From Leucobacter chinensis (GTDB taxonomy: Bacteria > Actinomycetota > Actinomycetes > Actinomycetales > Microbacteriaceae), in the NCBI RefSeq assembly GCF_019049105.1, contig NZ_JAHQZR010000003.1, positions 186,001 to 250,000 of the forward strand: 64,000 nucleotides of DNA, in the 5' to 3' direction. The notes under the pieces are model-generated. The model was given only the letters and a program-made list of their open reading frames with translations. It did not search any database and had not been told where the DNA came from. Both the position numbers and the translations under genes were made by a program. Shown one piece after another: positions 47,303 through 52,598 of the stretch. The stretch's first letter is position 1. The number at the start of each line of letters is the position of its first letter.

Positions 47303-49114
47303 TCACGTCGCCGCGTCGATGATGAGGCGTTCGAGGGCCCCCGCGAGGTCTCGAGCGTCATCAACCCGCTGGGCGGTCGGGGCATACCTGGCGACGAGCT
47401 CGTCTGAGCGCATGCCGAGCCCGAAGACCGTGACCCCGCGCGCTCGCATGTGTTGCAGGAGTGCCCTGGCCGCGGGTTCGTCGTCTGAGCCGCCGTCAGA
47501 GATGACGATGATGAGGCGCTGGCGCTCGGTATCACCCGTAGCCCGCTCGATGCCGAGCTCACGCATTGCGAGTTCGAGAGCTCGTGCATCGTTCGTGCCG
47601 CCGCTTGAACTCAGAGCCTCGCCGAGGAGCCTCGCGCGCGAAGCATCGTCGTTTGCTGCCGCGAGTGGCTTGACGAGCACGGGCTCAGCGTCGAACACGA
47701 TGAGCGCGGTGCGAAGCCGCATATCGAGGTCGATACCGAGGCGGCGTTCTTCGGTCTCAACGTCTCTCGCTACCGCGGCGAGCGCCTCAATGACGACGAG
47801 AGCGGCGTCGGCGGCGACCGGAGCCACATGACGCATTGAGCCCGAACGGTCGATGAGCAGCACGATGTCGAGGTTGCCGGGCTCTTCACGGCGTCGAATG
47901 ACGCGCTCCCTGCGGGCATAGGCTCTGGGCCTCGCAACGCCCGAGAGCGCTTCGGCGACGGCGCCGGGGAGCGCCTGCCGCATGAGCGTCTCACCCTGCG
48001 TCTCAGCAACCCGGCTCTCGCGCCTGAGCGGCGTTTTTCGCTCGGCGATCAGCTGCTCAAACACCGCGCGGAGTGCTTCAATATCGCTTTCACGCGACGC
48101 GACGCGTTCTCGGTAGGTCGCAAGCCGCACTTGGCCGAGCGCCCTCGCAGCAGCGACAGACTCTCGTTGCCCGCCCTGGCTTTGCGCCTCTGCGCCGCTC
48201 GCCTCCCACTCAGAAAGCGCTCTCGCGGCTTCGCTCGACAACGACATTGGGGTGTCGAGCATCGCTTTCACCTCACCCGCCTTCTGCGCCTCGAAGAGGT
48301 CGGCACCCTCGGCCTGTTCTGGGCCTTCGCCGGCCCTCGCCTGCTCGTTGCCCTCTTGCGCGCTCGCGTCTTCTGAGGCCGAGCCTGCGTCACCCTGCAC
48401 GGCGTCGGCATCGTCACCCTCACCGCCCTGCTCCAGCCCTTCACTGCCAATGTCGCCTTCAGATGCCTGTCGCTCGGCGTGCTCACCGTGGGTCGCAAGG
48501 CCTCGCGAGCGTGAGACGAGCAACTGCTCGAACGGCTCGAGCGTCAGGGCGAGCAGCCTCGCAAAGGTCTGTTCGGGATGAGGTTCGGCGAGTGGGGTTA
48601 TCGCGACCCACAATGTCTCAGCACCAATGCGATGCTCGAGCACATCGCCGCTCACCACGAAGGTCGCGTTTGACGCAAGCGCATCACCGAGCAGCATCAC
48701 AAGCCACTGCAGCTCGGGCGTCGCCTCGCGCAGATCGCGTGCGAGCATGACTGCCGTACTGGCTTCAAGACCTGCCCGAAAGCCAGGAAAGGCAGTCAGC
48801 ATTTCACCCGCCGCCTGAAGCCGGTCGAGTGTCACGAGCAACGGCTCAAGCTCGGGGCGCGTTGCTTCGAGCGTCAAGCGCTGCTGCGTTCTGCGCTCTG
48901 AGCCGGCCGGCCGCCGCCCCACGACCCAGAGGTCGAGCATGATGAGCGCTGTGAGCGCATCGTCGCTCAGCTCGGCCCCCAGAGCGCCGTACGCTCTCGT
49001 ACCCACCACGACTGCGCCCTCGTGAACACCCCAAGCATCGGCCTCGGTCACCTGAACCGAGACCCCGAGCAGCTTCGCAGCCGCTGTAACCCTTGCGTGA
49101 ACACCCTCTGTCAT
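47303..49114 (-). CDS. vWA-domain protein with acidic linker
   Basis: Protein of 603 residues from the ATG at 49112-49114. An N-terminal helical domain (1-205) is followed by an acidic, Gln/Gly-rich linker (208-275). A basic stretch PRAYARRERVIRRRE leads into a C-terminal von Willebrand A domain (about 415-600) with a complete MIDAS: DRSGS, then T in SGGTND, and D in VISDGGSDD. The design resembles CobT/CoxE-type vWA partners of MoxR ATPases. A TACAGT lies 6 nt before the ATG, suggesting a leaderless mRNA. It is divergent from the AAA+ gene. Confidence 0.85.
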   Translation of the reverse strand: MTEGVHARVTAAAKLLGVSVQVTEADAWGVHEGAVVVGTRAYGALGAELSDDALTALIMLDLWVVGRRPAGSERRTQQRLTLEATRPELEPLLVTLDRLQAAGEMLTAFPGFRAGLEASTAVMLARDLREATPELQWLVMLLGDALASNATFVVSGDVLEHRIGAETLWVAITPLAEPHPEQTFARLLALTLEPFEQLLVSRSRGLATHGEHAERQASEGDIGSEGLEQGGEGDDADAVQGDAGSASEDASAQEGNEQARAGEGPEQAEGADLFEAQKAGEVKAMLDTPMSLSSEAARALSEWEASGAEAQSQGGQRESVAAARALGQVRLATYRERVASRESDIEALRAVFEQLIAERKTPLRRESRVAETQGETLMRQALPGAVAEALSGVARPRAYARRERVIRRREEPGNLDIVLLIDRSGSMRHVAPVAADAALVVIEALAAVARDVETEERRLGIDLDMRLRTALIVFDAEPVLVKPLAAANDDASRARLLGEALSSSGGTNDARALELAMRELGIERATGDTERQRLIIVISDGGSDDEPAARALLQHMRARGVTVFGLGMRSDELVARYAPTAQRVDDARDLAGALERLIIDAAT

Positions 49115-49120
49115 GATCAC

Positions 49121-49206
49121 ACTGTATCGAGAGCCACCGACATCGCAGGCGCACCGACACAGTCATTCCCCGCCAGCCTCTCTCTGTCGGTGCCCCGTGC
49201 TAACGT
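49121..49206. promoter_or_regulatory. Divergent leaderless promoters of the vWA and AAA+ genes
   Basis: On the minus strand TACAGT (49121-49126) is 6 nt before the vWA ATG. On the plus strand TAACGT (49201-49206) is 6 nt before the AAA+ ATG. Both fit the TANNNT-N6-ATG arrangement of actinobacterial leaderless transcripts, so the module is expressed from one 98-bp control region. Confidence 0.5.
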
Positions 49207-49212
49207 GACCGC

Positions 49213-50781
49213 ATGGTGTCAGATCAAGCCAACCCGGTTCTTCTCGAAGCCCTCGAACTCGCCGAGGCTCTTCGGGTCATTCGACGAGCTGCGGTGCGCG
49301 ATCACCGCACCCTCTCTGGCCATACCGAGACCCCTGAGCACTCCGCGCAGCTTCGAACCGCGATCGCTTCTGCACTCAAAACCACCGAAGCGATAAGCCA
49401 CACTCAAGCCACCGAAGTGCCCCACGCACCGTTTGCTGAGCCGGTACGTGAGCACCTCCGCGAGCTCGCCGATACCGCCGCACGCTGGAACACGTTGTGG
49501 CGCGATCACCACGGCATGCTGGCTCCCGCATTCGACGCGCACCTCGCCGCTCTTCGCCAAGCCATCGCCCTACACAAGCTCGAAGACGCTTCGCGCGCGC
49601 GCTCACAAGGCCAAGACGAGGTACGCCAGCTCGCGGCCGCGAGCGACCGAGTACTCACGCCCGCCGAACGGCACCGACTCGCAAGCGATGTTCCACGTGC
49701 AACATCGCTGCCCAAAGCAAGCGAATCAGCTCACACGCTCATCGCTGAGGCCGCCAACCCCGAGGCCGTCGCACGCGCACTCGGCCAGATCACGCTCAAG
49801 CGGGCGGCCAACGAACTCAGTCAAGGGCTACTCGTCACCGACCAGATGCGAGACATCATCACCGAGGCTGTGCCCGTGCTGCACAGGGGCGATCCGCTAC
49901 TGCTCATCGGCGAAACGGGCGGGGCAAAAACCGCACTTGCCGAGCACCTCGCCCGTACAGTAGTGGCCGGCGAGCCAGAGTTCGTGTCGGGCTACGGCGA
50001 CATCACGAGCGCCCAGGTCATTGGCACGCACGAACTGCGAGCGGTCGACGGGGCAACGCTCACCGAGTTCGTTCCCGGGCCGCTTGTGCGGGCAATGACG
50101 CTCGGAAAGCCGATTATTCTCGACGAGATCAACGCAATGCCACCCGAGTTCTTAAAGCGACTCAACCGTATTCTGCAGCTCGGGCCCGGCGACCTCTTCA
50201 GCGTGCAAGAAAACGCAGGCGCTCAGGTTCGCATCGCCGAGGGCTTCGTTATTCTGGCCACAGCCAATGAGCAGTCACGCAGACGCTACCGCGGCATTGA
50301 GCAGCTGAGCGCAGAGCTCGTGAACCGCTTCGGCGCCAACACGTTCAGGGTGCTCTACCCCGACGCGCAGCGCAGCTTCCACGAGACACCCACCGAAAAC
50401 CTGCTGCTGGCCTCGACCGCGGCGAGTGGACCCGATGGGCGTCTGCTGCCAGGCATGTCGTCTGAGCTCCTTGAGCGAGTTGCCCGCGTAGCTTTCGTGA
50501 GCCAGCAGGTCTTTGCCGGATCGCAGGCCGAGGGGTTCAGAGACTACGTGAGTACCGAGCACGCCGTCGACGGGCGCCCGGGGCTCGAAGAGTCAGTCAT
50601 TGCGCCCCGCACGCTCGTGTCGATCGTGCGCAAGGTCTCGCGCAGCGCAGGTGCGCTCACCCTCGACCACGCGCTCTCACGCTTCGTCTCGGGCGTCATG
50701 CACAGCGAAGACCGCCAGGTCCTGACCCTCATTCTGCACGGCCAGGGTTTCGGCCTCACCGAACTCGCGGCTGGGCGCTGA
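49213..50781 (+). CDS. MoxR-type AAA+ ATPase with long N-terminal helical region
   Basis: Protein of 522 residues. The first 200 residues are helical and unlike common MoxR proteins. The AAA+ domain carries Walker A GETGGAKT (233-240; Ala before Lys, as in MoxR/RavA variants), Walker B IILDEIN (301-307), sensor-1 ATANEQ and an arginine-finger segment ELVNRFGAN. MoxR proteins with vWA partners remodel or activate target complexes and load metals. It is divergent from the vWA gene; TAACGT lies 6 nt before the ATG, so the mRNA is probably leaderless. A parS-like site lies inside this gene. Confidence 0.85.
   Translation: MVSDQANPVLLEALELAEALRVIRRAAVRDHRTLSGHTETPEHSAQLRTAIASALKTTEAISHTQATEVPHAPFAEPVREHLRELADTAARWNTLWRDHHGMLAPAFDAHLAALRQAIALHKLEDASRARSQGQDEVRQLAAASDRVLTPAERHRLASDVPRATSLPKASESAHTLIAEAANPEAVARALGQITLKRAANELSQGLLVTDQMRDIITEAVPVLHRGDPLLLIGETGGAKTALAEHLARTVVAGEPEFVSGYGDITSAQVIGTHELRAVDGATLTEFVPGPLVRAMTLGKPIILDEINAMPPEFLKRLNRILQLGPGDLFSVQENAGAQVRIAEGFVILATANEQSRRRYRGIEQLSAELVNRFGANTFRVLYPDAQRSFHETPTENLLLASTAASGPDGRLLPGMSSELLERVARVAFVSQQVFAGSQAEGFRDYVSTEHAVDGRPGLEESVIAPRTLVSIVRKVSRSAGALTLDHALSRFVSGVMHSEDRQVLTLILHGQGFGLTELAAGR
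49689..49704. other. parS-like ParB site
   Basis: TGTTCCACGTGCAACA matches the parS variant TGTTCCACGTGAAACA at 15 of 16 positions. The palindrome extends to 24 bp (49685-49708) with a single mismatched pair. It lies in the coding region of the AAA+ gene, about 2.5 kb from the dnaB DnaA-box cluster. Confidence 0.55.
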
Positions 50782-50790
50782 GGCGCTCGG

Positions 50791-52167
50791 CTAGATGCCG
50801 CTCGGCATATCTTGAAAGCGCGAGAAGTGGCCTTGAAAGGCGACCGTGACGGTGCCCGTGGGGCCGTTACGCTGCTTCGCAAGAATAAAGTCTGCCTCGC
50901 CAGCGCGCGGGTGATCTTTCTCGTGAACCGCCTCACGGTGCAGCAAGATCACCATATCGGCGTCCTGCTCCAGTGAGCCAGACTCACGCAGGTCACTGAT
51001 CGCGGGAAGCTTATCGGCACGCTGCTCAGAGGCACGGTTCAGCTGCGACAGGGCCACGACCGGCACATCGAGCTCTTTCGACAACAGCTTGAGCGCACGC
51101 GAGAACTCACTGACCTCTTGCTGACGGCTTTCAACCTTCTTACCGCTTGTCAGCAGCTGCAGGTAGTCAATGACGATCATGCGCAGGTTATCGGTCTGCT
51201 TCAGCCGGCGACATTTCGCGCGGATCTCAGCGAGCGTCATATTCGCGCTGTCGTCGATGAACAGCGGCGCGTCGTGAATGCGGCTCTGCGTCGCAGCAAG
51301 CTTCGTCCAGTCACGCGGCTCAAGATTGCCCTTGCGCAACACCTGCATAGGAATCGAGGCCTCAGCGGCGAGCATACGCGTCGCGATCTCGGCGCGGCCC
51401 ATCTCGAGTGAGAAGAACACCGTCGCGGCGCCGTGACCCACCGATGCGGCCCTCGCCACGTCAAGAGCAAGCGTCGACTTACCCATCGCGGGACGAGCGG
51501 CAATGATGATCATCTGGCCGCCACCAAAACCGTTCGTGAGCTCGTCGAGCTCCTGGAACCCGGTGGGAACACCGGTCATGCCGTCTTCGAGCGTGCCAGC
51601 GCGTTCGATCTCGGCCACGGCATCATCCATGGCAAGCGACAGCGGCACGTAGTCTTCGCCGGCGCTACCACCGGCAACGTTGTAGACCTCGGCCTGCGCG
51701 TTATTCAGCAGGTCGACAGCCTCGCCCTCGCCCGAGTAGCCCATCTGAGCAATGCGGGTACCCGCGTCAACGAGCCTGCGCAAGAGTGCCTTGTCGCCGA
51801 CGATCTCGGCGTAGTACCCCGCGTTTGCCGCGGTAGGCACAACTGCGGTGAGCGAGTGCAGGTACGCGACACCACCGGCGCGCTGCAGATTGCCGAGCTT
51901 GGTCAGCTGATCTGAGACCGCGATCTCATCAGTTGGCTCACCGTGCGCGTAGAGATCCATAATCGCGTCATAGATCACCTCGTGCTTTGGCACGTAAAAG
52001 TCAGCACCGCGCAGCAAGCCGTACACGTCGGCAACGGCGTCTTTCGAAAGCATCATGCCGCCGAGAACACTCTGCTCAGCGAGCAAATCGTGCGGCGGTG
52101 TGCGCTCTGCCCCCTGTTCGAAGGCGCCTTGCGATGGGTCTGTAGCGCTGATGTGCGCGAGTGACAT
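50791..52167 (-). CDS. dnaB: Replicative DNA helicase
   Basis: DnaB of 458 residues, the hexameric fork helicase. The N-terminal domain begins PPHDLLAEQSVLGGMMLS. The RecA-like motor has Walker A ARPAMGKST, then FFSLEMGRAEIATRMLA, the Walker B region MIVIDYLQLL and SQLNRASEQRADKLP. No intein is present. The ATG at 52167 has GGAGG 5-9 nt upstream; the longer frame from 52203 is less likely. In many Actinobacteria dnaB follows rpsF-ssb-rpsR-rplI; here about 4 kb of other genes separate them. Upstream is the DnaA-box cluster. Confidence 0.96.
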   Translation of the reverse strand: MSLAHISATDPSQGAFEQGAERTPPHDLLAEQSVLGGMMLSKDAVADVYGLLRGADFYVPKHEVIYDAIMDLYAHGEPTDEIAVSDQLTKLGNLQRAGGVAYLHSLTAVVPTAANAGYYAEIVGDKALLRRLVDAGTRIAQMGYSGEGEAVDLLNNAQAEVYNVAGGSAGEDYVPLSLAMDDAVAEIERAGTLEDGMTGVPTGFQELDELTNGFGGGQMIIIAARPAMGKSTLALDVARAASVGHGAATVFFSLEMGRAEIATRMLAAEASIPMQVLRKGNLEPRDWTKLAATQSRIHDAPLFIDDSANMTLAEIRAKCRRLKQTDNLRMIVIDYLQLLTSGKKVESRQQEVSEFSRALKLLSKELDVPVVALSQLNRASEQRADKLPAISDLRESGSLEQDADMVILLHREAVHEKDHPRAGEADFILAKQRNGPTGTVTVAFQGHFSRFQDMPSGI

Positions 52168-52278
52168 GGGGCCTCCGAACAGTGAATGCTTCGTGAACGA
52201 CAATCACGAGTATTGCCGAAACTACTGACACAACCGTAGGCACTTTCAGGCGGTTGATCAACTCGCCGTTTTCCCACC

Positions 52279-52523
52279 TGTGGATAACTATGTGCATAAG
52301 GCACCAATACAGTGGGGACTTTATTCACACAAGCTGTTAGTAACTGTGTATAAGTTTTTTGTTCGAAAAATCTTTAATGTCCTGACCTGCGGTTTTCATA
52401 TTTTTATACTGTGCACAACAAGAACCTTTAACCACAGGTTCAACCTTAAACAGCTGACTTGACTGTGGAGAAAAGAGGGGGTAAGAGGCAGTTTTAGACC
52501 CTTTTTCGAAGGGGTTTTCCACG
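52279..52523. other. AT-rich DnaA-box cluster upstream of dnaB
   Basis: The 431-bp gap before dnaB is AT-rich in an otherwise GC-rich window. Relative to TTATCCACA it holds one perfect reverse box (52279-52287). One-mismatch boxes are at 52291-52299 (reverse), 52321-52329 (forward), 52345-52353 (reverse), 52428-52436 (forward) and 52464-52472 (reverse). Two-mismatch boxes are at 52410-52418 and 52515-52523. AT-runs at 52351-52380 and 52391-52410 could unwind. The site could be a DnaA-titration or dnaB-control locus, or a replication origin. Confidence 0.75.
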
Positions 52524-52598
52524 TCTTTTTTCGTGACATAAACACCCCCGATCCCACTCCCGCGTAGGGTAGAGAGGTAACGCAGAAGGGAACGTTCA

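Follow-up and report, generated by a model that had tools for sequence, protein, structure and literature searches.

Why does a cluster of DnaA boxes stand in front of dnaB, the gene for the fork helicase, in Leucobacter chinensis? We have analyzed this locus in a window of 64,000 nucleotides (contig NZ_JAHQZR010000003.1, positions 186,001 to 250,000; window positions are counted from its first letter), which is part of a 305-kb contig (C17) in the 2.94-Mb genome. A first-pass annotation had described the cluster in the gap upstream of dnaB and proposed that it could serve for control of dnaB by DnaA, as an origin or as a datA-like DnaA sink. We found that the boxes form an array of rigid spacing, conserved and linked to dnaB, and that its offset from a promoter-like element changes only by whole helical turns. 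DnaA bound at this array probably activates dnaB through contact with RNA polymerase on a fixed face of the DNA.

The DnaA-box array and the predicted dnaB promoter

The start of dnaB had to be placed before the gap could be delimited. Its homologues start at residue 13 of the longest open reading frame (ORF), and the ATG at 52167 is preceded by a GGAGG ribosome-binding site at 52172-52176, so that the upstream gap is 52168-52598. Compared with the earlier delimitation (52204-52598) the right end is kept, and the left end moves from a TTG at 52203 to this ATG. The features referred to below are:

50791..52167, minus strand: dnaB, replicative DNA helicase (TIGR00665 DnaB, 501.9 bits, above cut-off)
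52233..52238, minus strand: predicted -10 hexamer TACGGT, after a 17-bp spacer (TAnnnT, mostly TAnnGTG, in 144 non-redundant upstream regions)
52256..52261, minus strand: predicted -35 hexamer TTGATC, with its TTG in a constant helical phase relative to box A
52279..52287, minus strand: box A, perfect TTATCCACA followed by GG, near-invariant across the family
52291..52299, minus strand: box TTATGCACA, in tandem with box A and 12 bp upstream of it (position -12 conserved)
52321..52329, plus strand: inverted box TTATTCACA, array position -42 (exactly there in 40 of 50 Leucobacter-group sequences)
52345..52353, minus strand: box TTATACACA, array position -66 (filled in 22 of 50)
52383..52395, minus strand: non-DnaA motif AAAnnCSnGnTCA, here AAACCGCAGGTCA, a conserved column block
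52428..52436, plus strand: inverted box TTAACCACA, with no more than one mismatch to TTATCCACA
52464..52472, minus strand: distal box TTCTCCACA, array position -185 (between -184 and -186 in 46 of 50)

The one perfect and five one-mismatch boxes previously listed between 52279 and 52472 were all recovered at their positions. Six sequences in these 194 bp match TTATCCACA perfectly or with a single mismatch, and the remaining 63.8 kb of the window have only three others; after shuffling the window, 2.79 matches are expected in total and nine were never reached. The cluster upstream of dnaB is thus real and far above chance. The weaker pair near 52410 and 52515 has two mismatches per copy; the AT-runs beside the boxes (52351-52380 and 52391-52410) are present as well. 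An Rfam scan of the gap gave just a chance match to HOTAIRM1, below the gathering score.

Boxes were also counted across the whole genome, by pattern searches with the reversed sequence as control, and the outcome depended on the pattern. Boxes with up to one mismatch were not commoner than in the control (158 vs. 155), whereas TTATNCACA was (25 vs. 7). Eleven of the 25 TTATNCACA copies fall in three places of one contig, namely the dnaB gap (four), the dnaA-dnaN gap (four) and palindromic pairs located 26 and 30 kb beyond dnaA (three), and one more single copy lies upstream of dnaA.

The rigidity of the array was measured in an ungapped alignment of 50 non-redundant Leucobacter-group sequences anchored at box A. 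With respect to this box, the positions were -185 (occupied in 46 sequences, within 1 bp), -120 (inverted, 14), -66 (22), -55 (22), -42 (inverted, 40), -12 (11) and 0. The DNA between the boxes is largely unconserved, yet their spacing is fixed over 185 bp. On the strand of dnaB, box A has the nearly invariant sequence TTATCCACAGG, and the tandem box 12 bp upstream is frequent.

Box A is followed by a predicted sigma-70-type promoter, TTGnnn-N16-18-TAnnnT, conserved at a fixed phase. In the window the box lies 17 bp upstream of the -35 hexamer, about -53 to -61 from the transcription start predicted near 52226. We compared 144 non-redundant sequences having both box and promoter, with a distance from box to -35 allowed up to 60 bp. 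The -10 hexamer lies 30-32 bp from the end of box A in 80 sequences, 40-43 bp in 47 and 51-52 bp in 17, that is, zero, one or two added helical turns, and no value of 33-39 or 44-50 bp appeared in this set. Periodicity at 10.5 bp was very high from box to -35 (R of 0.96-0.97), compared with 0.12-0.45 for the leader between the -10 and the start codon. Leucobacter uses just 17/18 and 28/29 bp between box and -35 and most other Microbacteriaceae 7/8 bp, and the same series of distances to the -10 (31, 42, 52) is found in Micrococcaceae and neighbours. At least 10 changes of distance class are needed on the dnaB tree, whose well-supported branches require six for the class with one added turn and three for that with two. 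In shuffled sequence a promoter was found within 60 bp in 1.6% of cases and at 6-8 bp in 0.09%. Changes restricted to whole turns suggest that DnaA activates by touching RNA polymerase. In Rathayibacter and its relatives, four sequences seemed to be shifted by 12 bp; they were discarded as true shifts, since in them box A is degraded and the distance is that of the tandem box 12 bp farther upstream.

Some conserved blocks of the array are not DnaA boxes. Two were detected in the Leucobacter group, one ending in TTGAATAACTTT and the other reading AAAnnCCtGaTCA; in other Microbacteriaceae the latter is held in place and CGGCGTTT is added beside the tandem boxes. AAAnnCSnGnTCA was found upstream of dnaB in 31 of 79 usable named loci (Microbacteriaceae and neighbours), compared with 12 matches in 1.53 Mb elsewhere. 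As to a possible site for IHF or an equivalent, the array shows the conserved AAAnnCSnGnTCA and TTGAATAACTTT blocks. A further block, CGGCGTTTY, seen upstream of dnaB in loci L047-L106, stands beside the tandem boxes in 45 of the 79 loci, with 22 matches in the 1.53 Mb elsewhere; the core group of Leucobacter, in which the array is one or two turns farther from the promoter, lacks it.

Linkage of the array to dnaB

Nearly all of the 79 loci had boxes no farther than about 400 bp from dnaB, and few were present in the rest of the 20 kb. The family search spanned 85 genera, with relatives that are not all independent, and at least two boxes were found within 400 bp of dnaB in 158 of 178 loci (mean 3.3; four had none). 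In loci L094, L100, L021 and L322, the 400 bp upstream of the gene are without a one-mismatch box; family members without boxes indicate that the array can be lost. Among 62 genomes of other actinobacterial families, 37 had at least two boxes within the same distance and shuffled sequences none, with a mean of 1.92 boxes per genome against 0.03 in the shuffles. Some families keep just one or two boxes upstream of dnaB.

The gene order around the array is less constant. In most relatives it is preceded by rplI, while in many Microbacterium, and in the genome studied here, other genes stand between rplI and the array, which remains at dnaB. In two genomes of one genus dnaB is located 454 and 566 kb from dnaA, and the unit of box and promoter is intact at 7 bp. 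Keeping its place at dnaB despite new neighbours and a far-off dnaA, the array belongs to dnaB and not to the origin or to the upstream gene. We had considered that it could be part of the divergent ORF of 288 amino acids, which was ruled out because most relatives have rplI there, reading toward dnaB, and that it could be a marker of proximity to oriC, which the two genomes with a distant dnaB rule out. On the other side of dnaB, its 3' end is adjoined divergently (47303-50781) by an AAA+ ATPase (weak GvpN-like match) and by a protein that weakly matches the von Willebrand A type.

Alternative roles and the case for activation

One alternative role is that of an origin. The C-terminal domain of dnaA is encoded at 267.9 kb of C17, boxes of the dnaA-dnaN gap are located at 268157-268353, and the cumulative GC skew of the contig is lowest in the bin that closes at 270 kb, with negative skew in all bins between 230 and 270 kb. 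The dnaB gap, at 238.3 kb, is 30 kb away from both, so that at this resolution it is not the origin; the first-pass annotation had noted that dnaA is not in the window and that the gap need not be oriC. The two arrays do resemble each other. Within the genus the oriC array is similarly rigid and its outer boxes are about 191 bp apart, compared with 185 at dnaB, where the centre is also AT-rich. However, at the dnaA-dnaN gap there are paired boxes at the end, followed by an AT-rich TTAACACTGTTAACA-like block (AT 0.69), and a ACAACTCACAnnnnTGTAGTT block upstream, and there is no dnaB promoter. The dnaB array holds some AT-rich DNA, but neither the paired boxes, nor the TTAACACTGTTAACA-like unwinding element, nor ACAACTCACAnnnnTGTAGTT are seen in it; such differences in motifs also ruled out that it is a copy of oriC. 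We consider it highly improbable that this gap serves as origin of the chromosome, whether as the only one or as a second. A DnaA sink or nucleotide-exchange element like datA or DARS of Escherichia coli, placed beside dnaB by chance, is improbable too, if less extremely so. Several boxes in a fixed arrangement over about 190 bp, outside the origin and in this genome 30 kb from it, are generally similar to such elements; however, the array is tied to a promoter and to one gene instead of a chromosomal position, it follows dnaB to 454-566 kb from dnaA in phase with its promoter, and some families are down to one or two boxes. It is not independent of the neighbouring gene, which it tracks through rearrangement. 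Titration of DnaA could be a by-product, but would leave the phasing unexplained.

Repression, with dnaB expressed just when DnaA is scarce or ADP-bound, is somewhat easier to envisage but still unlikely. The dnaA gene is reported to be autorepressed by DnaA in several bacteria (PMC8203912), and box A lies close to the -35. Against this, the box is upstream of the -35 without overlapping it and shifts by whole turns, while simple occlusion requires no phase; besides, in Mycobacterium tuberculosis weaker DnaA binding is reported to accompany less dnaB mRNA (PMC7738170).

Two observations were made around dnaA itself, outside the window. A perfect TTATCCACAGG box is found at 266477-266485 of C17, some 110 bp before the probable start of dnaA, in a position fitting a possible autoregulation by DnaA. 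Farther on, two near-identical elements (L034:8686-8711 and L034:12275-12300, at 294686 and 298275 of C17) read TTACACMGGTGTAATTTrTCCACA-N8-TGTGGATAAGTTGATAACTT, that is, palindromic DnaA-box pairs next to a TTACAC palindrome; located 26 and 30 kb past dnaA, they resemble the palindromic DnaA site reported at Rv0010c-Rv0011c (PMC7738170).

We favour activation, in which the gap would combine the dnaB promoter with a DnaA-binding array. DnaA molecules would occupy the boxes across about 190 bp (-185 to 0 with respect to box A), forming a nucleoprotein complex of fixed geometry whose promoter-proximal end, box A, lies a short way before the -35 and on one face of the helix, where bound DnaA could contact RNA polymerase. 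This contact, like that of a class I/II activator, would raise transcription of dnaB, and the supply of helicase would track the availability of DnaA, possibly its ATP state. Several points weigh against this interpretation. The promoter and its activation are predicted from sequence, and helical phasing would also fit a repressor that contacts RNA polymerase. The four 12-bp cases are not evidence of phasing. A match to box plus promoter was missing from three of the 56 non-redundant sequences of the Leucobacter group, from 19 of the 103 of other Microbacteriaceae and from four of 11 further ones, in some cases because the hexamers are weak, and a generic sigma-70 scan with stricter -10 rules did not list the predicted dnaB promoter, since it demanded a stricter match than the conserved one. 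Binding of DnaA in L. chinensis, the sign of the regulation, the polymerase contact and any role in the cell cycle are put forward here as predictions.

Precedents and significance

The proposal of the first-pass annotation that DnaA controls dnaB is well supported, both by an array phased to the promoter that follows the gene through changes of gene order and by precedent in mycobacteria. DnaA is reported to bind upstream of dnaB in M. tuberculosis (Rv0057 region) by in vitro DNA affinity purification sequencing (IDAP-seq), and at the homologous site of M. smegmatis by chromatin immunoprecipitation sequencing (ChIP-seq); the site is among the five most enriched DnaA regions, oriC included, and the DnaA variant I282T of M. 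tuberculosis shows weaker binding there and less dnaB mRNA (PMC7738170). The array described here, predicted from its letters, shares with that site the location directly upstream of dnaB, tied there to its expression, but rigid spacing or phasing with a promoter is not described in the available parts of that article. The other families of Actinomycetes sampled have fewer boxes and other arrangements. In Caulobacter crescentus, of a distant phylum, Hottes et al. (2005, via PMC8203912) are reported to have placed dnaB in the DnaA regulon, and the gene has predicted DnaA boxes upstream; the likeness is in these boxes and in the dependence on DnaA. The nrdAB promoter of E. coli has high-affinity DnaA boxes nearby and is activated by stabilization of RNA polymerase, although it drives another gene, is repressed at high DnaA-ATP, and a series of helical turns is not described for it in the available parts of the source (PMC8203912). 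There, activation by stabilizing RNA polymerase and contact of DnaA with the polymerase beta subunit are given as precedents, and how DnaA activates, and what decides between its activating and its repressing role, is listed as an open question (PMC8203912). A literature search for DnaA boxes at helicase promoters in Streptomyces or Corynebacterium gave nothing specific. Control of dnaB by DnaA was thus already known; what appears to be unreported, in a literature search that fell short of most subscription papers, is the architecture, rigid and phased to the helix, together with its spread.

A more ambitious model, to which we give somewhat less than an even chance, is that of an orisome-like DnaA assembly of fixed geometry, conserved in Microbacteriaceae and looser across Actinomycetes, that would act as a helix-phased activator of dnaB, with DnaA in contact with RNA polymerase on a defined face, and with the supply of helicase at initiation set by the ATP state of DnaA. 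Further proteins, at the CGGCGTTTY, AAAnnCSnGnTCA and TTGAATAACTTT blocks, may join this assembly. Evolution has in effect repeated a natural spacing experiment, in which the array was displaced by a full turn or by two, and apparently not once by half a turn, and such moves make the contact between DnaA and RNA polymerase directly testable. This pattern suggests that across a large class of bacteria, mycobacteria and streptomycetes included, the amount of fork helicase supplied is coupled to the initiator.
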